From contig DYDG01000004.1 of the NCBI GenBank assembly GCA_020717845.1, positions 1-49,935 on the forward strand: a stretch of DNA of 49,935 nt, written 5' to 3'. Numbering within the stretch: the first letter of the stretch is position 1; each line of letters starts with the position of its first letter. Source of the stretch: Marinifilum sp. Lineage in GTDB: Bacteria; UBA9089; CG2-30-40-21. Both the position numbers and the translations under genes were made by a program. Positions 2,799 to 11,480 of this stretch are shown here, one piece after another. The notes beneath the pieces were generated by a model. That model saw nothing but the letters and a program-made list of their open reading frames with translations. It had not been told where the DNA came from and did no database searches.

Positions 2799-2949
2799 AA
2801 TTTCTCCTTAACTGATAAAGTAACTGCTTACCACAGAGAGAACAGAGATGAATGAGAATAATCGTTACTATATGGAGTCCAAAGTTCTTTGCGAACTTTG
2901 CGAGAAATCTTTTCGTCAAGTTGGTTTGCATATAGTAGTTACATCTTGC

Positions 2950-3525
2950 AGTCAATTCTGTAGCAGCAAGCACTTTTGTTTCATTCACAGAGCTGGCATA
3001 GTCCAATATCCATCTGGGGTGTCCCGTATCAATACCACGATAATAGAGGAATTTAGCTATCTCATGTAGCCAGCCGTAATAAGAGCGTTCAAAGTCATGC
3101 TCATGGTAGGTAACATCATCTGCTTCTCTCAAGTCCATAGGATGGGCAGCCACTAAAGGTGATCTGATCCCCGCCCTGACCACCCCACACCCCAATACCC
3201 TACAATCGTCTTTATCTGTGAGTTAACCGCATAGTCTGCCTTTTTTATCTCGCTGATAAACTCCTTAATCTTTTCACCACGCCATGTAATCCATCGCTGC
3301 TAAGCAGGATTGCTCCAGTTTTTAATTGCAGGCAGGTCATGTCCTGTCCTCAGCCTTAAACTTTGTTTTTGCAGGCATCACAGTGGCATGACCATAGCTA
3401 TCCCAGCCTTCACCAAAATCATGGATAAAAACTATATCCCATCAAGCCCTGTTTTGGCTATTCTGGCTACCCGTTCGGTGTAAAATGCCAGATATTCCAG
3501 ATTGTTTAGACACAATCATCTGTCC
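2950..3525 (-). pseudogene. Decayed gene, unidentified (possibly glycosidase-like)
   Basis: Read on the minus strand, protein-like segments follow in order but in different frames. They are NLEYLAFYTERVARI, then FIHDFGEGWDSYGHATVMP, then KIKEFISEIKKADYAV with GYWGVGW, then HPMDLREADDVTYHEHDFE, WLHEIAKFLYYRGIDTGHP and NETKVLAATELTA. At least three frameshifts or stops separate them, and the 3' end dissolves into repeat-like sequence near 2880-2950. The aromatic and acidic composition suggests a carbohydrate-active or similar secreted enzyme, but I do not recognise the family. A 158-aa frame across 2719-3195 is a mosaic of this relic and the start of the YfhO-like gene, not a gene. Confidence 0.55.
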
Positions 3526-3539
3526 TCATCTGCTACGAT

Positions 3540-6155
3540 TTAATCCTCTCCGTCTACCTCAACCATTACCTTTTTTTTCGCAACAGTAACCTTACGATAT
3601 ACCTCTTCCGGCTCTTTACGGACATCATCAACAACAAGCAATTCTTCAATAGAGATGCCGAATAACCGCTCGTTTTCCTGCAAATAAGGAAGCATAACCT
3701 GCCAATCTTCAGGGGTAAGACGAACAAATTCTCCGCCATTTAGTTGTCCCTTGACCATTTTTTTGTGTGGATCACGAACATAGATAGCACCGCCAGAGGC
3801 AAGCGAAAAAAGGTTTGAACCAGGATAGGGGCTGGGTTGCTCTACAAACTTGCCTCTTATCTCGTCAAACTCAATCCCATTGAGGATAACAAACCCACCG
3901 CCATTTAATGGGTCGCCAGCCATAAACGATTCAGCTAAGAAGTCGAGACAGGTGCCGTTTATGACCACCCTTGGCCTGCCAACCGCATTAATCATGGGTC
4001 TTCCTGCAATATTGCCAAGGACATAAACATTGCCGCCCTTAGCACCATACATAAATGTTTGCCCTGCATCACCATAGATGACGAGCTTCCCACTTTTCAT
4101 TATCTGTCCCAATTGATCCTGAGCATTCCCATGAATAAAAATCTCCAGACCATCTATGCCTGAGGCAATATAATCACCAGAGGAATCATAAATATCAATC
4201 CTGACACCCTGTGTATTTAATCCAAGCCCACAGCCGCAAAATCGTTGTCCAAGATAGCCATAGCAGATAAACCTTTTCCATCCCAGGTTATAGGCAGCAA
4301 CTACCAAATGCGAGTCGCAGTCCTCACCCTCAGGGGTAAAGTCATGGGCATCAATTATCAGCACCTGTTCATTGTCTCTGGGTGCTCTCAGGGTATTCCG
4401 TTTCTTAAAATCAATTAATTTGTATACCCCATCGCTATGGCTCAGATCCTTTGTTGACTCAAATACATCGTGAAGGGTTAGCTTAAGTATTTCCAATATC
4501 CCGCTTCTCTTTTTTGTCCCAGTATCGTATCGTTGGTCATTGAGCAGGGTAAGTATCTCGAGTGTCTTTGTTTTGTCCTGATCATTCCCAGCAGCCATGC
4601 TTACCATCTCATGGCAAACCCAACGAAATGTATTATAGTCCCAGTCTTTGAGGTTATCCTTAAGATACTCAAACAACTCCATGCTTGAACAGGCAGCAAA
4701 CCTTTCCTTGATTGACTGAGACTGTTGAGTGGTCTGAATGATGACAGACAGATCAGGGTGTGTCTGGTTTTCAGTGGTCTTGATTACTCGTCCAAACTTA
4801 TCGGTGCAAGTAAGCTTCTTTTGCTTTTTTTGCTCTCCGCCATTTTCATCAAGGGTAAAGATAAATGCCCCGCCGTCTGTATGACTTCCGCCACGGGCAT
4901 TCCAGTATTTATCTGCGATAAGGTGAAATCTTTTATCCTCTTTGGAAAGGCTATTGAGAATAGCATCGATTGCCTGTTTTTCAGAGCCAATGATGCCTAT
5001 CTGTATCTCTCCCTCTTGCAGGGCAAAAACCTGGGGCCTGAGCATGGCCGTATCAGTAATGCCGATAAGCTGAAGTTTTTTATTCTCTGCATCATTACGG
5101 GCAATGATAAAAAGCCAGGGTCCATCAGGTGAACCATGAACATGGAGCTCCTGAATATGCCGATATATTCGCTGCTTTTCAGCAGGCAGTTGATCAAAAT
5201 CAAGCTCTGTTGTTGGTGCCAATGCCTCAACAATATACTCCAGTGGATAGCCATATGTTCTGTTCAAGAGGTCAAAGACAAGAACAGACACCTCTGTATC
5301 GGTCAGGAATAATGGCTGGATATTTCGCTGATAAAGGTATTCGCTTACTGAATGGTAGTTAGCAAAATCGCCATTATGCACCAATGCCTCGTTTAAGCCA
5401 ATGAATGGGTGTGCCCCGCCAGGATGCCAGAGCCTGCCTCTGGTGGGATAGCGTTGATGAGCAATCCAGACATGAGCCTTAAAATCATCCATCTGGTAAT
5501 ACTGGACTGCCTGTTCAGCATAGCCAACCACCTTTAATATCATCATGTTGCGTCCATGTGAGAGAACAAACGCTCTTTTCTCACCTTTTTCATCCAATGA
5601 GGCATAAAACTGCTTGTTCAACTTGAATGTATTCTGGTAAATAAATTCATCCTCTGCCTTTCGCAGATCCATTCCAGCAAGGTTATTCTCCTTGATAAAT
5701 TGTGTCAACACATCTTCCTTTATTCGGACAAAGTATTGACAGACATCTGGCGGCTTAACCTCCAGACCAATCTCTTGATAATCATCAATAGTAGGAATCA
5801 TGGCTGAGTGTGTAACATCCATGAATGGCAGGATGCAGTCTTTTTCAACCTCACCCTTTGCTGTAGGGTCTAATAAGGCTATTTGCAGCAAATAGCAGTC
5901 ATCAAGCGTTTCCTTACTTATCCCAAAGTGTTTGGGATCAAATCCAACCGCAGCGATCCCGCCGCCCTTGCCATTACCTCGATTATGCATCTGGATAGAC
6001 GGCTCAAAGATATGCCTGCCACGGACTGGAACAGAGCAGGCAAACCCAACAACACCACAGCCGCCCTCTGCCTCAGTCTGCCATTTATCAGGCATTATAT
6101 CATCTTTCAATCTTTCTCTTGAGTTAATAACTTGTTCTGCAAAATTATTTACCAT
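3540..6155 (-). CDS. Glutamate synthase, glutamine amidotransferase plus GXGXG subunit (split type)
   Basis: This 871-residue protein joins the two outer domains of glutamate synthase. The N-terminal class II (Ntn) amidotransferase domain has its nucleophile in GGCGVVGFA at about Cys33, so a short propeptide must be removed to expose it, as in other glutamate synthases. The motif WIAHQRYPTRGR and the block EALVHNGDFAN follow. The C-terminal part is the GXGXG beta-helix (IFIHGNAQDQLG, VIYGDAGQTFMYGAKGG, PMINAVGRPRVVING). The central FMN domain is absent and is encoded by the upstream gene. I chose ATG at 6153-6155 because AAGGGGTATGAAATG, the same context as at rpsC, lies there; the frame opens at 6269 but that extension is encoded by a palindromic repeat. 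It probably releases ammonia from glutamine for transfer to the FMN subunit. Confidence 0.85.
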   Translation of the reverse strand: MVNNFAEQVINSRERLKDDIMPDKWQTEAEGGCGVVGFACSVPVRGRHIFEPSIQMHNRGNGKGGGIAAVGFDPKHFGISKETLDDCYLLQIALLDPTAKGEVEKDCILPFMDVTHSAMIPTIDDYQEIGLEVKPPDVCQYFVRIKEDVLTQFIKENNLAGMDLRKAEDEFIYQNTFKLNKQFYASLDEKGEKRAFVLSHGRNMMILKVVGYAEQAVQYYQMDDFKAHVWIAHQRYPTRGRLWHPGGAHPFIGLNEALVHNGDFANYHSVSEYLYQRNIQPLFLTDTEVSVLVFDLLNRTYGYPLEYIVEALAPTTELDFDQLPAEKQRIYRHIQELHVHGSPDGPWLFIIARNDAENKKLQLIGITDTAMLRPQVFALQEGEIQIGIIGSEKQAIDAILNSLSKEDKRFHLIADKYWNARGGSHTDGGAFIFTLDENGGEQKKQKKLTCTDKFGRVIKTTENQTHPDLSVIIQTTQQSQSIKERFAACSSMELFEYLKDNLKDWDYNTFRWVCHEMVSMAAGNDQDKTKTLEILTLLNDQRYDTGTKKRSGILEILKLTLHDVFESTKDLSHSDGVYKLIDFKKRNTLRAPRDNEQVLIIDAHDFTPEGEDCDSHLVVAAYNLGWKRFICYGYLGQRFCGCGLGLNTQGVRIDIYDSSGDYIASGIDGLEIFIHGNAQDQLGQIMKSGKLVIYGDAGQTFMYGAKGGNVYVLGNIAGRPMINAVGRPRVVINGTCLDFLAESFMAGDPLNGGGFVILNGIEFDEIRGKFVEQPSPYPGSNLFSLASGGAIYVRDPHKKMVKGQLNGGEFVRLTPEDWQVMLPYLQENERLFGISIEELLVVDDVRKEPEEVYRKVTVAKKKVMVEVDGED

Positions 6156-6186
6156 TTCATACCCCTTCGCATTTTCGTGTAAAATC

Positions 6187-6283
6187 CGATCGTTCAGGAT
6201 ATGTATCCTGAACGTAATATTGGCTGTGGGGATATATATCCCCACTTCAACTTTGCATTCAGGATACATATCCTGAACGATCG
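6187..6283. repeat. Nested palindrome upstream of the amidotransferase subunit gene
   Basis: A perfect 26-bp inverted repeat (6187-6212 against 6258-6283) flanks a perfect 20-bp palindrome (6226-6245, gtggggatatatatccccac). Each arm is itself almost a palindrome around ttcaggata...tatcctgaa. The whole block can fold as one long stem or as three hairpins. It lies just upstream of the chosen start at 6155. Confidence 0.9.
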
Positions 6284-6288
6284 AGCAG

Positions 6289-6305
6289 GATGGGTGAAAC
6301 CCATC
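6289..6305. repeat. Short hairpin GATGGGT-GAA-ACCCATC, copy 1
   Basis: A perfect 7-bp stem with a 3-base loop. The identical sequence, with matching bases on both sides, lies at 12163-12179. Confidence 0.8.
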
Positions 6306-6343
6306 TATTTTGTTCTATTCTGTTCTATTTTGTCTACCCACCG

Positions 6344-7825
6344 TTAGCCTATCTTTACCCCTTCATACTCCAAACAATCATGTCTGCCCACTAATTCCTG
6401 AATGCTTCTCATGCCCAATTTTTTGAGGATGTCAACCAATTGAGTATGCCATGATGAAAGGAGGTTAGTCAGCCGTTGGCTTGACCAGTCAGAATCAAAG
6501 TGATGGGTTAATTCCTTATCTGTTGTTGCAATACCTCGCGGGCATCCACGCCCGCTTTCACAATTAGCACATCGGACACATTCAAGGGCAACCATCTCTG
6601 CTGTGCCAATAACCACCCCATCAGCACCCAGGGCAATTGCCTTGGCTGCATCTTGAGCGGTCCGAATCCCGCCTGAGGCAATCAGGGTTATTTTATCCCT
6701 GACACCCTCAGCCTTTAAAAAGTTATGCACCTTCGGAATAGCATATTCTATAGGCATAGCAATATTTTTCTTAGCAATATTTGGTGCTGCACCTGTTCCG
6801 CCATAGCTGCCGTCTATATGAATAATATGAGCCTCAGCATAATAGCTGCCTATGGCTACCATATCAACATCTGTTGGTGTTGAAACCTTGACTGAGACCA
6901 ATGCCTTAGGATTCATTGCCTTTATCCAGTCAACATGCTTTTTATGATCCTCAACCGAATAGACTGAATGGAATGGGAATGGTGAGAAAAGGGCAGAGCC
7001 TGGCAGAGCCTCACGCATGACAGCTACCTCTGGTGTATTTTTATCACCAAGTAAATGCCCACCTAAACCTGGTTTTGCCCCTTGAGCATACTTGAACTCA
7101 ACGATCTTAACCCGTTTGATAGTATCTTCCCGAACACCGAAGAGTCCGGTTGCAACCTGAGTAATAACATGGTCATCATAAGGATACAAGGTAGTATGAT
7201 ACCCGCCTTCACCTGTACAGGTAAAGGTATTCCACGCCTTAGCTGCCCTTGCCTTGCCAATTATGGTAGACAATCCAACTGAGCCAAATGACATTCCGCC
7301 ACCATAAACAGGCAGTCCTATCTCAACCCTGTGTGCTGAATCATTCCGTCTGTTAAGAGGGATAGCGGTGCTTATTTCTTCATTTTTTAGTTTAATAGAG
7401 GGATTTTCTGGAAATTTTATCTTCAGCCTGTCAAATCCGCCGCCAGAATTTCCCACACTATATTCAAGCCCATTTGTTGGCACCTTGCCTGTCTCTGCCT
7501 GATACCATGTAGACAGGATAAGATCGTTTGTCCAACGGTAATCTCCCAGCATTTCCATCATAGGATTGATGATAACAGACAATGCTCCCTGAGGACAAGA
7601 GTCAACACAGGCGTTGCATGAGATACCAACACACTTATGCTCCTCTGGTCTTGAAAAGGACGAAGTGCCTGCCTGTTGATGAACCCCAACCGTGCAAACC
7701 TCGACACACTTACCGCAGTTAATACAAGTTTTGTCACGATAGACAATATATTTGGATATCTGATTTCTATACCGTGAGGGGGCAAGTGCTACCCCTGGTA
7801 CAGATTCAACAATATTATTTGACAT
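6344..7825 (-). CDS. Glutamate synthase FMN/Fe-S subunit (split, archaeal-type)
   Basis: This 493-residue subunit should carry out the synthase half-reaction, combining 2-oxoglutarate with ammonia on an FMN/Fe-S centre. The N-terminus is a ferredoxin domain with CINCGKC...C at residues 34-44 and a second cysteine group at 65-77. The FMN-binding glutamate synthase domain follows, with KPGLGGHLLG, the glycine-rich HIDGSYGGTGAAP and IASGGIRTAQDA. A cysteine cluster CVRCANCESGRGCP near residue 415 matches the 3Fe-4S site of the family. The start is ATG at 7823-7825, preceded by GGAGG; the ATG at 7838-7840 overlaps that binding site and is less likely. It lies between the amidotransferase subunit and a degenerate paralogue. 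No NADPH-binding gltD is nearby. Confidence 0.88.
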   Translation of the reverse strand: MSNNIVESVPGVALAPSRYRNQISKYIVYRDKTCINCGKCVEVCTVGVHQQAGTSSFSRPEEHKCVGISCNACVDSCPQGALSVIINPMMEMLGDYRWTNDLILSTWYQAETGKVPTNGLEYSVGNSGGGFDRLKIKFPENPSIKLKNEEISTAIPLNRRNDSAHRVEIGLPVYGGGMSFGSVGLSTIIGKARAAKAWNTFTCTGEGGYHTTLYPYDDHVITQVATGLFGVREDTIKRVKIVEFKYAQGAKPGLGGHLLGDKNTPEVAVMREALPGSALFSPFPFHSVYSVEDHKKHVDWIKAMNPKALVSVKVSTPTDVDMVAIGSYYAEAHIIHIDGSYGGTGAAPNIAKKNIAMPIEYAIPKVHNFLKAEGVRDKITLIASGGIRTAQDAAKAIALGADGVVIGTAEMVALECVRCANCESGRGCPRGIATTDKELTHHFDSDWSSQRLTNLLSSWHTQLVDILKKLGMRSIQELVGRHDCLEYEGVKIG

Positions 7826-7872
7826 CACGTTTTCCTCCATTTTTCCCTTTTCCCCTGTTTTCCCATTTTCCC

Positions 7873-9252
7873 TTACTTACACATAATCGCATTCACAAAA
7901 TCTCGTTCCAGATCCTCAAGGAACATTGCTCTTCCTGTTTCACCCCGAAGCCTGCGTGCCTCACGAATACCCATAGCACCCATGACCTCTATTAATTGGG
8001 AATGCCATGCACCCATCAGGTTTATTATTCGTCTGCTGGCCCACGCAACATCTATCTTTTCCATCTCTACTGGACAGGACAACCCTTTTGTGCATCGTTT
8101 ACACACCCGACATTCCAGGGCAATAGGGAGTATCAGGTCAACAGCTGCTCCATCTGCCCCGCACAGGATGACCTTGGCTAAGTGTTCAGCCAGACCAATG
8201 CCGCCAGAGACGATAATGGTTACCTCATCCCTTATAGATTTAGCTACAAGCTGCCGATGAATATCCCGCACCATATCCTTGATAAACCGCGGCTGTGCGG
8301 CATCATGTTCATTTCCTTGATAGTCTGCATAAAGGTGGATAATCTCTACCCCATCCTGTATCAGTTTTTGACTGATATCAGCTGCGTTTTTATCGAGCTT
8401 CAGCCGGACAGAAGCAATTAAGCTGGAATTAATCTTTTTGGCTTGAGCAATATATTCCATGATATTTTCTTCATAGATGAACTCAGCCAGTCTCGCCCCT
8501 GTAAGCAATTTTTTCTGCGTCTCAAATGTCTTTGCACTAAATTGTGGCATCAGGATTTTATTGTAAGGGCTAAGCTCATCGAAATACTCCTCTGCCTCAA
8601 TCAGCATGGGGATATCCAATTTATTAGCTGCCTTAGCCATAGCCAGCCTCATGTTTTTATTTATCTTGCCAAATGGCAGGATATTAAAGATGATCGGCAT
8701 AGGAATATTTATGGTAGGCGGTGGGCTGGAGACAAGATGCCCTTGCGTATCAAACTCAAGGCTAACCAATTTTCTGCCAAGGTCAATACTGGTACTGATA
8801 TATTCTCTGCCATGGATACCGTCACGGGTTGGCCTGACAATCTCAGACATATCAGTCCACATAGAATCAAAGCCATGCCCTGTAAATGGACCCAGATACC
8901 CGGCACCAGAGACAGGGATCTTGCCGGTTTCTGCCTGATACCAGGTAGTAGCAATGATATCCGGCTTCCAGTATGAATCACCAAGCCTTTTATATTCAGG
9001 GTTTATTGCCCTGGAAAACAATCTTCCCTTACACTCCTGAACACAACGGAAGCAATTTTTACACAAATAATCAATGGTATCTGTCAATTGCTTAGAATCG
9101 AAGCTGCGGTTTTTATATACATCATAGACGCATGATTTCTTAGCACACTTAGCACATCCAAGACAGCCATCCCTTTCGATCGCAGATACCTTGCCAACAG
9201 GTGTAAACCTTGGCAAGGTTGGGGTGATATTTATATGATATTTTTCTGGCAT
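7873..9252 (-). CDS. Degenerate glutamate synthase-like FMN/Fe-S paralogue
   Basis: A 459-residue relative of the downstream FMN subunit with the same overall plan. It has an N-terminal two-cluster ferredoxin region (Cys30, 33, 36, 41 and Cys64, 67, 70, 74), a TIM-barrel region (IIVSGGIGLAEHLAKV) and a C-terminal cysteine cluster (CRVCKRCTKGLSC). Where the true subunit has GSYGGTGAAP this protein has DYQGNEHDAAQP, and KPGLGGHL is missing, so the active site seems lost while the Fe-S ligands are kept. I infer an electron-transfer or scaffold role for the synthase; independent catalysis is not excluded. The start ATG has GGAG nine bases upstream and flpD ends 17 bases before it. Confidence 0.8.
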   Translation of the reverse strand: MPEKYHINITPTLPRFTPVGKVSAIERDGCLGCAKCAKKSCVYDVYKNRSFDSKQLTDTIDYLCKNCFRCVQECKGRLFSRAINPEYKRLGDSYWKPDIIATTWYQAETGKIPVSGAGYLGPFTGHGFDSMWTDMSEIVRPTRDGIHGREYISTSIDLGRKLVSLEFDTQGHLVSSPPPTINIPMPIIFNILPFGKINKNMRLAMAKAANKLDIPMLIEAEEYFDELSPYNKILMPQFSAKTFETQKKLLTGARLAEFIYEENIMEYIAQAKKINSSLIASVRLKLDKNAADISQKLIQDGVEIIHLYADYQGNEHDAAQPRFIKDMVRDIHRQLVAKSIRDEVTIIVSGGIGLAEHLAKVILCGADGAAVDLILPIALECRVCKRCTKGLSCPVEMEKIDVAWASRRIINLMGAWHSQLIEVMGAMGIREARRLRGETGRAMFLEDLERDFVNAIMCK

Positions 9253-9269
9253 ATTAGTTTTCTCCTTAA

Positions 9270-9668
9270 TTATCGTAACGGATTCTGTCCAATCTCTTTT
9301 ATTCTGGCAACCATCTCATCCACAGCCTCAAGCATTGTATTTGAAACATCATCTCCTGGCACTTGTTTCATTAACAACCGATTCTGTCCAAGACCTATCT
9401 CATCCAAATATTTTTTTGCCATTTCAAACCTATTTCTGGCACGCTTATTCCCGATAAGCGACTGACACTTCCCATTCAAGCATATAGCTACAATCACCCC
9501 ATCAGCTCCTGTTTCAAACGCCTCAAGGATATGAAGCACCTCAAGCCTGCCAGAGCATGACAGCTTAATCAGATGAATATCGACAACCTCATGTTGTTCA
9601 AGAGAATCAACATCCTTAACTGACATACAATTATGACAACAAAACATTGCAATCTTTATTTTTTCCAT
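9270..9668 (-). CDS. FlpD/MvhD-family iron-sulfur electron carrier
   Basis: A 132-residue protein of the family known from the delta subunit of F420-non-reducing hydrogenase, which passes electrons between hydrogenases or formate dehydrogenases and heterodisulfide reductase. Family marks seen are FCCHNC at residues 9-14, LSCSGR around Cys38, ILEAFETGADGV, and CLNGKC at 63-68. The start is ATG at 9666-9668 with AAGGA six bases upstream; a longer frame to 9806 runs through the promoter and leader and is rejected. It is the first gene of the glutamate synthase operon, which suggests it feeds reductant to the Fe-S subunits downstream. No hydrogenase or Hdr genes are in the window. Confidence 0.82.
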   Translation of the reverse strand: MEKIKIAMFCCHNCMSVKDVDSLEQHEVVDIHLIKLSCSGRLEVLHILEAFETGADGVIVAICLNGKCQSLIGNKRARNRFEMAKKYLDEIGLGQNRLLMKQVPGDDVSNTMLEAVDEMVARIKEIGQNPLR

Positions 9669-9682
9669 GTTAAATCCTTTTT

Positions 9683-9709
9683 GTAGGGAAAGGCGTGACC
9701 GTTTCCTAC
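9683..9709. repeat. GTAG-flanked palindromic element in the flpD leader
   Basis: An imperfect palindrome beginning GTAGGGAAAGG and ending CCGTTTCCTAC. A relative lies at 38780-38802. It sits between the leader hairpin and the flpD start. Confidence 0.6.
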
Positions 9710-9732
9710 ATGTTAAACCGGGTATACAGACA

Positions 9733-9763
9733 CAAAAAGAGTGTCTTATCGAAGATAAGACAC
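9733..9763 (-). terminator. Terminator-like hairpin in the flpD operon leader (possible attenuator)
   Basis: A perfect 10-bp stem (gtgtcttatc / gataagacac, 9741-9763) with a 3-base loop. On the minus strand it is followed by TCTTTTTGTG. It lies downstream of the promoter at 9797-9825 and upstream of flpD, so it would act on the operon's own leader, possibly as an attenuator. The regulator is not visible. Confidence 0.5.
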
Positions 9764-9796
9764 CCTTATCTCTTACTAATACCACAATGTTAAAAT

Positions 9797-9825
9797 ATAA
9801 TACCATAGTGGCTGTATTTTGTCAA
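9797..9825 (-). promoter_or_regulatory. Sigma70-type promoter for the flpD-glutamate synthase operon
   Basis: On the minus strand TTGACA (9820-9825) is followed after 17 bases by TATTAT (9797-9802), one mismatch from full consensus. The expected transcript starts near 9790 and has a leader of about 120 nt containing two hairpins. Confidence 0.75.
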
Positions 9826-9911
9826 GCACTTTTTGGGCTCTGCATGGAAGACGTCCCTCAAGGATGAGGATGGCAGGGTAGTGTCGCGTCAACCTTAATC
9901 TGTCGCATGTA

Positions 9912-9939
9912 GTAGAGACGCGATTAATCGCGTCTCTAC
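9912..9939. repeat. Perfect 28-bp palindrome of the GTAG family
   Basis: A fully self-complementary sequence beginning GTAGAGACGCGATT. Relatives with the gagacgc core lie at 40597-40622, 43287-43305 and 49359-49382. Confidence 0.85.
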
Positions 9940-9950
9940 ATTGGAAAAAG

Positions 9951-9973
9951 GCAGGGACAAGCCCTGCAGCTAC
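9951..9973. repeat. GTAG-family hairpin (GCAGGG stem)
   Basis: A hairpin gcagggacaagccctgc followed by agctac, which is GTAGCT on the minus strand. A relative is at 45659-45680. Together with neighbouring elements it fills most of the 9669-10283 gap, where I see no gene. Confidence 0.65.
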
Positions 9974-10143
9974 ATTAATAAACCATTCGACACTTGAGAC
10001 TTGACACAACAGTAGTCGAAATTCATTGCACCTATAACCCTGAAACCAGGAGTGGCTGGTCGTAATGTCATGGGAACACTGCATTGGGTCTCAGCAAATC
10101 ATGCCATTTTCATGGGCAAAGGGTGGAAAGGCGAAGTAATTTA

Positions 10144-10258
10144 TTCACCACAGAGGCACAGAGACACGGAGAAATATTACGAGAATGGACATTGAAATTT
10201 ATAATAAATCCTATTTTAATCCCGGTTCTAAAAGCATTCTTCGTGCCTCTGTGGTGAA
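10144..10258. repeat. Small element with perfect 16-bp inverted ends
   Basis: The sequence ttcaccacagaggcac at 10144-10159 is exactly complementary to gtgcctctgtggtgaa at 10243-10258. The 115-bp block has no coding capacity. It resembles a miniature inverted-repeat element; no target-site duplication was identified. Confidence 0.65.
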
Positions 10259-10283
10259 AATATGTTTCTATATTGTCTTATTC

Positions 10284-11480
10284 TCATTTTTTAATAATAG
10301 ACCGCAGCATCAAGGGAGTAAGTAGCACAGAAACTATTACCACCAGTATTATGGCTGAAAAGACATCTTTGGTTAGCACCCCCAGACTCAGACCCACTGA
10401 GGCAATGACTAAGGTCAACTCGTTTCTTGGGACAAGGGCAATGCCAATAACTAATGAATCCCTGAGATTGAACCTGCCTATCTTCCCGCCTATAAACCCG
10501 CCTATTATCTGGCTTACAATAGTCAAAAGGACAAGTATTCCCCCAAATAGCCCGACACTACCTATTGCCCTAAAATCAAACAAAAGTCCGATATTGAAGA
10601 AAAAGAATGGGACAAAGAATCCATTGGAAATGCCGCTTATTCTGTAACTCATTGTTTCTGTCTTAAATCTTGGGATTATGGAGATAGAGATGCCGAATAA
10701 AAAGGCACCAATAATAGCACTCAATCCCATCTTTTCTGTGAGATAGGCAAACATAAAGAGTATACCAGTGATGATAGAAAAGCTTGCCTCTTCCACAATC
10801 ATTCTGTCTATTAATCGAGAAAGCCATAAAAAAACATACTTGCTGGCTAAAAATATCAATAAACCAAAACCGCCTGTCTCAAAGAAAATAATACTAATGG
10901 TGCGGAATGAGATACTGCCTGTTTGAACAATCCCCATGACCATGGAGAGGATAACCAGTCCAATAAAGCCGCCTGCAACCGCTGAAATAAGGATAGTGCT
11001 CCCAGCCGCAGTAGCCAGATACCTCATATCAATCAAGGAACGAAGGCTAACCCCAATACTGGTAGCAGACATGGCCAGACCAACCAACAACGGCCCATTG
11101 ATTGAAGAAGACTGCGGGAAGATTGTTGATGAAAAAATGATTGCTGCCAGAAAACCGCCAAAGAATGGAAAGATTGTCCCCAGAATAGCTGCTGGCAGGG
11201 ATCTAATAATAGAGCCTGAAAACCTTTCCAGTTCAATTTTTTCAAACCCTATGGAAAACAACAAAAAGATGATGCCTATCTCTCCAAGGAGTTTAATCGC
11301 TGCAGCAGAATGAGTAAGGTTGCCGTCTCCGGTAGAAATGATAATAAGTCCAAGCCCAGGACCAAGAATAACCCCTAAGATAATTTCACCAAAGATGGAC
11401 GGAAGGCTTATCCTTTCAAATACCTCTCCAATAAGCTTGATGAGGATTAATATTATGCCTATGGTAAAAATGACATCCAT
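10284..11480 (-). CDS. CPA2-family cation:proton antiporter (Kef/NapA-like membrane domain)
   Basis: This 398-residue protein is almost wholly hydrophobic with about twelve membrane segments. It opens with the typical CPA2 sequence (ERISLPSIFGEIILGVILGP) and has the later PRNELTLVIASVGL signature of the sodium/proton exchanger domain. Such proteins exchange Na+ or K+ for protons across the inner membrane. There is no C-terminal TrkA-N nucleotide-binding domain, so it is the short form. The start is ATG at 11478-11480, with GGAGG seven bases upstream; an ATG six bases earlier is too close to that site. A CBS-domain protein lies about 145 bases upstream on the same strand and could be a separate regulator. 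Confidence 0.85.
   Translation of the reverse strand: MDVIFTIGIILILIKLIGEVFERISLPSIFGEIILGVILGPGLGLIIISTGDGNLTHSAAAIKLLGEIGIIFLLFSIGFEKIELERFSGSIIRSLPAAILGTIFPFFGGFLAAIIFSSTIFPQSSSINGPLLVGLAMSATSIGVSLRSLIDMRYLATAAGSTILISAVAGGFIGLVILSMVMGIVQTGSISFRTISIIFFETGGFGLLIFLASKYVFLWLSRLIDRMIVEEASFSIITGILFMFAYLTEKMGLSAIIGAFLFGISISIIPRFKTETMSYRISGISNGFFVPFFFFNIGLLFDFRAIGSVGLFGGILVLLTIVSQIIGGFIGGKIGRFNLRDSLVIGIALVPRNELTLVIASVGLSLGVLTKDVFSAIILVVIVSVLLTPLMLRSIIKK

Follow-up and report, generated by a model that had tools for sequence, protein, structure and literature searches.

Glutamate synthase (GltS) is the point at which ammonia enters biomass, and its known electron donors are NADPH, NADH and ferredoxin, with F420H2 proposed as another. 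The locus described here lies in a 49,935-nucleotide window (the whole stretch of DNA analyzed) of a 2.55 Mb draft genome (181 contigs, 94% complete) from a small uncultured phylum represented by 19 species, and it raises the question of what delivers electrons to a glutamate synthase whose genes follow one for a FlpD/MvhD-type protein. A first-pass annotation, made from the sequence alone, had placed three glutamate synthase genes behind flpD and proposed that they draw on an Hdr/Mvh-type or ferredoxin-based module rather than on NADPH. All four genes are indeed present on the minus strand (Table 1). The three behind flpD are all related to glutamate synthase, but one is best read as a non-catalytic Fe-S paralog of GltB2 (GltB2') and another is a fusion of GltB1 with GltB3.

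Table 1. Features of the FlpD-GltS locus, in window coordinates.
Feature	Position	Strand	Evidence
Sigma-70-like promoter, TTGACA-17-TATTAT, upstream of flpD	9797..9825	-	11/12 consensus positions
Terminator-like hairpin and U-tract, between promoter and flpD start	9737..9767	-	14 pairs
FlpD/MvhD-type [2Fe-2S] protein, probable GltS-specific subfamily, 132 aa	9270..9668	-	PF02662 E 2.3e-27, 95.9 bits vs cut-off 22.3
GltB2', GltB2 paralog, 459 aa	7873..9252	-	PF01645 over residues 246-429 only, E 5.2e-14
GltB2, catalytic-type FMN/Fe-S glutamate synthase subunit, 498 aa	6344..7840	-	PF01645 E 2.7e-91, 306.9 bits
GltB1+GltB3 fusion, class II glutamine amidotransferase and GXGXG domain (probable start)	3540..6155	-	PF01493 49.5 bits; GATase similarity
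Palindromic MITE-like element, between gltB2 and the GltB1/3 fusion	6187..6283		36-nt arms, TTCAGGATATGTATCCTGAA core

The genes are separated by 17 nt (FlpD/GltB2'), 32 nt (GltB2'/GltB2) and about 190 nt (GltB2/GltB1+GltB3). GltB2 carries the motifs of a synthase subunit (AQGAKPG, GGTGA and the cluster cysteines), and alignment of its catalytic half to 6s6s, 1ea0 and 1llw finds these and the Fe-S motifs kept. Twelve of its cysteines, eight N-terminal and four C-terminal, are invariant in 65 of 65 sequences; classical GltS has three cysteines at the C-terminal site whereas GltB2 has four, making a [4Fe-4S] cluster possible at this position. The fusion protein combines a GXGXG domain with a class II amidotransferase that has its catalytic cysteine (Cys71 after EGG, invariant in all 54 sequences). 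Although the open reading frame of the fusion begins at 6269 (3540-6269, 909 aa), translation probably starts at residue 39 of that frame, at position 6155, where the homologs start.

In a profile alignment against GltB2, GltB2' lacks a 44-residue stretch (AQGAKPG...YSVEDH) corresponding to the 2-oxoglutarate/FMN loop, and its GGTGA motif is lost. Twelve cysteines, again eight N-terminal and four C-terminal, are invariant in 75 of 75 GltB2' sequences, and an AF2 model (pLDDT 83.9, pTM 0.86) adopts the glutamate synthase/glycolate oxidase barrel fold. With its cysteines kept, its substrate loop lost and its barrel predicted, GltB2' is most plausibly a subunit that transfers electrons and does no catalysis; its N-terminal eight-cysteine domain would hold about two [4Fe-4S] clusters. 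A near-invariant segment at residues 115-152 (window positions about 8797-8910), which includes MWTDMSEIVRPTRDGIHGREYI, belongs to the best-conserved part of GltB2'; residues 115-147 are the sole segment with a pLDDT below 50. Since this segment is invariant yet predicted to be unstructured alone, it is likely to be a partner-binding element.

The arrangement is not peculiar to the window. Across the 19 genomes of the phylum, GltB2' is complete in seven and is present in an eighth as a C-terminal piece cut by the end of a contig; in a ninth genome, the contig ends just past GltB2. The order FlpD-GltB2'-GltB2-GltB1/3 holds wherever contigs reach far enough. The strong GltB2 matches of the phylum come from eight genomes and all belong to such an operon or to what a contig end has left of it; the remaining genomes have distant FMN-barrel proteins and no strong GltB2. 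Scanning 84,980 named genomes with an alignment of GltB2' yielded 269 relatives, among which we kept 80 loci that, judging by their record titles, come from Desulfobacterota, Chloroflexota, Planctomycetota, Poribacteria, Latescibacterota, ANME-1/Methanophagales, Methanocellales and others, including the cultured strain Desulfospira joergensenii; a search of a plasmid collection returned weak, partial relatives only. Recurrence of the gene order across the phylum and dozens of named genomes indicates that the operon is not a chance assembly. Glutamine synthetase (glnA) is encoded at 22 of the 80 loci, mostly directly upstream, which ties the operon to ammonia assimilation, and carbamoyl-phosphate synthase genes lie downstream at some. 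At four loci (L059, L115, L116 and L130) GltB2' and GltB2 form a single polypeptide; an AF2 model of such a natural fusion, taken as a proxy for the complex, reached a pTM of 0.54, and the arrangement of the subunits is not readable from it.

The pairing of FlpD with GltS that was first noticed in the window thus recurs across the phylum, and FlpD is encoded at 58 of the 80 named-genome loci. Thirteen loci instead carry an LdhD-like module, none carries both, and the nine with neither have short upstream DNA. When the count is limited to the 55 loci whose upstream sequence extends for 2.5 kb or more, the tally becomes 46 with FlpD, nine with the LdhD-like module (all archaeal) and none with both. 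The LdhD-like module, identified at L074, is a protein of the GlcD/LdhD kind with FAD_binding_4, FAD-oxidase_C and Fer4 domains. In ANME-1 and Methanocellales (L074, L082, L122 and other archaeal loci), this FAD/Fe-S protein replaces FlpD before GltB2', which suggests a 2-hydroxyacid as the electron donor for glutamate synthase at these loci.

The FlpD of the operon matches the family profile and has its four conserved cysteines (C11, C38, C63 and C68), which are invariant in 59 of 59 GltS-linked FlpDs and are conserved as well in the wider family, of which MvhD, in HdrABC-MvhAGD, is one of the members with a solved structure. The window protein does not resemble an HdrA/Mvh-associated FlpD in context, as Hdr and Mvh genes are absent from both the operon and its flanks, nor in phylogeny, as it belongs to a separate branch. 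In a tree that included 48 control FlpDs, many of them from the same genomes, the GltS-linked copies are separated from the rest by a branch supported at 95/98, with one long-branch exception among 54; the alignment spans about 135 columns, five long branches were dropped, and an earlier tree with fewer controls gave 58/97. Pfam scores within the phylum are likewise split, at 77-116 bits for GltS-linked copies versus mostly 135-191 for other full-length FlpDs. The case that GltS-linked FlpDs constitute a subfamily of their own is good but not conclusive, and their presence at 46 of the 55 loci with enough upstream DNA bears out the idea that FlpD is tied to glutamate synthase, as a dedicated and conserved partner.

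No gltD lies near the operon, as had been noted at the outset, and the same is true genome-wide: in this 94% complete genome, every match to the GltD model TIGR01316 falls below the curated cut-off. Four such sub-cut-off matches exist, comprising an HdrL-type fusion, a NuoF fusion, a [2Fe-2S]/GltD protein and a DsrL-like protein beside dsrMKJOP-like genes. The genome has one glnA and, for glutamate dehydrogenase, no convincing match and one weak, partial one; when classical GltD and glutamate dehydrogenase were considered as alternative routes in this genome, neither was found. Among the named-genome loci, GltD occurs near two, both Desulfobacula-like (L089:3-5009 and L091:3-4988), where it belongs to a second, complete split GltS (GltB1, GltB2 and a GltB3~GltD fusion) about 2 kb upstream of a FlpD-MetVF-GltS operon. 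Such side-by-side occurrence argues that the GltD-bearing and FlpD-type synthases are different enzymes.

Considering this gene content and conservation, the cysteine ligands, the loss of the catalytic loop and the separate FlpD branch together, we infer a complex, an electron path and a donor, and judge it reasonably likely that the operon's product is a glutamate synthase lacking GltD, to which FlpD and GltB2' bring electrons as a dedicated input module. Judging from the conserved catalytic motifs, the GltB1+GltB3 fusion would hydrolyze glutamine and channel ammonia to GltB2, the FMN of which would reduce 2-iminoglutarate to glutamate. The donor would dock on FlpD, in the role that GltD otherwise has, and its electrons would move from there by way of the GltB2' Fe-S clusters to those of GltB2 and to its FMN. 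Because the locus encodes no donor, the donor in the window genome would act in trans. FlpD could instead be a structural or accessory subunit.

The best comparative lead to the first donor is MetVF, acting on methyl-THF. MetV (PF12225) and MetF (PF02219, methylene-THF reductase) are the commonest extra neighbors among the loci, lying between FlpD and GltB2' in most bacterial ones, and are absent from the window locus. Most genomes with a GltS-linked MetVF have three to six copies of MetV, so the GltS-linked copy looks dedicated, and in a quick tree most GltS-linked MetVs form groups of their own. The notion that GltS-linked MetVF is the sole methylene-THF reductase was accordingly rejected for most genomes, the exception being L123, which has one MetV. 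Formation of glutamate from 2-oxoglutarate and ammonia has a potential near -130 mV, somewhat above that of the methyl-THF couple, making a methyl-THF donor thermodynamically possible. Each step has a published precedent: the methyl-THF couple lies at -200 mV, purified MetVF reduces viologen with methyl-THF, and MvhD pulls down MetF in Sporomusa ovata (PMC9430772). A dedicated MetVF is probably the donor in many relatives. A fuller version of this model, in which MetF (FAD), MetV, FlpD, GltB2', GltB2 and GltB1/3 would form one complex in many anaerobes, with methyl-THF oxidation (about -200 mV) driving the reductive amination of 2-oxoglutarate, and in which the window lineage would keep the FlpD-GltS core and rely on another carrier or on a MetVF from elsewhere in the genome, we regard as possible but doubtful as a whole.

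Ferredoxin is the main rival donor. It would dock on the 2[4Fe-4S] domain of GltB2 or GltB2', leaving FlpD an accessory or regulatory part, and GltB2 could take such electrons directly through its own N-terminal Fe-S domain; the eight-cysteine ferredoxin-like domains on both proteins are in keeping with this scheme, as are the facts that the known Fd-GltS works without GltD (PMC8097209) and that purified MetVF accepts ferredoxin (PMC9430772). Such a synthase would not account for FlpD being almost universal and forming a separate subfamily, nor for its strict alternation with the LdhD-like module, and we consider it possible but rather unlikely. The Hdr-type donor proposed in the first-pass annotation, which would be an HdrA or HdrL module with genes outside the operon that feeds FlpD, has a precedent in complexes in which MvhD binds HdrA (PMC2702500; PMC9430772), and the window genome does encode several HdrA-like proteins with FlpDs of their own, located beside HdrA- and HdrL-like genes and in one such cluster (C37) also with MetVF. 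That proposal fares poorly on gene context: Hdr genes are missing from the window locus, HdrA and HdrC share a gene run with the operon at one of the 80 loci (L123, Desulfofervidaceae), other FlpD-bearing loci lack flanking Hdr genes, and the GltS-linked FlpDs branch apart from the rest. Its Mvh-type variant finds no matching hydrogenase in the window genome, since the single NiFe large subunit scores best as an NAD(P)-type sulfhydrogenase, not as VhuA/MvhA. We consider an Hdr-type donor improbable.

An input other than NADPH, the remaining part of the original proposal, is plausible, and gltD is missing from the locus. NADPH or NADH might still reach the synthase if a stand-alone GltD-like protein, such as the 559-aa DsrL-like protein or HdrL, acted in trans, and four GltD-like domains are available in the genome for such a role. 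None of the four passes the GltD cut-off, however, all lie among genes of other systems (dsrMKJOP-like, Nuo or HdrL-FlpD), and the Desulfobacula loci carry a GltD-bearing GltS beside the FlpD type as a distinct enzyme, which together make an NAD(P)H donor very unlikely.

Comparison with known systems places the FlpD-GltS operon among glutamate synthases with an altered electron input. The split archaeal-type enzyme (GltB1, GltB2, GltB3) has the same three functional parts and an N-terminal Fe-S domain on GltB2, whereas the window operon has GltB1 and GltB3 fused, adds GltB2' and FlpD, and has no GltD. The NADPH-dependent bacterial enzyme shares the catalytic FMN domain, the class II amidotransferase and the GXGXG domain, but consists of a single large GltB and an NADPH-oxidizing GltD, neither of which the operon has. 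FGltS and the FrhB10 clusters of ANME (PMC9012536) likewise pair GltS with a swapped electron-input subunit; there the swapped part is an FrhB/Fsr-N homolog taking F420H2, whereas the window operon's family uses GltB2' and FlpD, the latter sometimes accompanied by MetVF, and no FrhB/Fsr-N-like subunit was found in the operon or the scanned flanking genes. The S. ovata system (PMC9430772) joins FlpD/MvhD to MetV and MetF as many operon relatives do; in the operon, glutamate synthase subunits stand in place of HdrA, HdrB and HdrC, and MetVF is lacking at the window locus. Among open-licence PMC papers, we found no report of FlpD or MetVF with glutamate synthase. Taken together with its relatives, the operon suggests another GltS form that is widespread and has a modular input (FlpD, FlpD plus MetVF, or an LdhD-like flavoprotein). 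In sulfate reducers, anaerobic methanotrophs and uncultured anaerobes, such a form would connect the assimilation of nitrogen with one-carbon metabolism or with other metabolism at low potential. Ammonia assimilation in many anaerobes may thus use a previously unrecognized electron source.

Several further features of these genomes deserve mention. In the window genome, a dsrMKJOP-like cluster with an adjacent DsrL-like protein of the GltD family (contig C74; L054, L055) suggests dissimilatory sulfur metabolism in this phylum. A PF01645-related FMN-barrel protein of about 530 aa, with no assigned function, occurs in many operon genomes (L172:3531-5123 in the window genome, contig C96; L110:1122-2774; L116:9700-11283; L071:638-2302) and at several loci lies within 10 kb of FlpD-GltS, the copies outside the window genome having been recognized by eye.

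The strong promoter first seen before flpD is near-consensus and is kept in a congener (G003), where the DNA upstream of it diverges. The flpD leader folds with a z of -4.4, and its hairpin, which persists in the congener with one wobble change, is possibly an attenuator or the terminator of an upstream gene; Rfam has no match within 2900-10400. The MITE-like element is present in the window species and absent from the congener, and its TTCAGGATATGTATCCTGAA core is dispersed through the genome, with 24 forward and 25 reverse matches (at most three mismatches) against 0 for the control.
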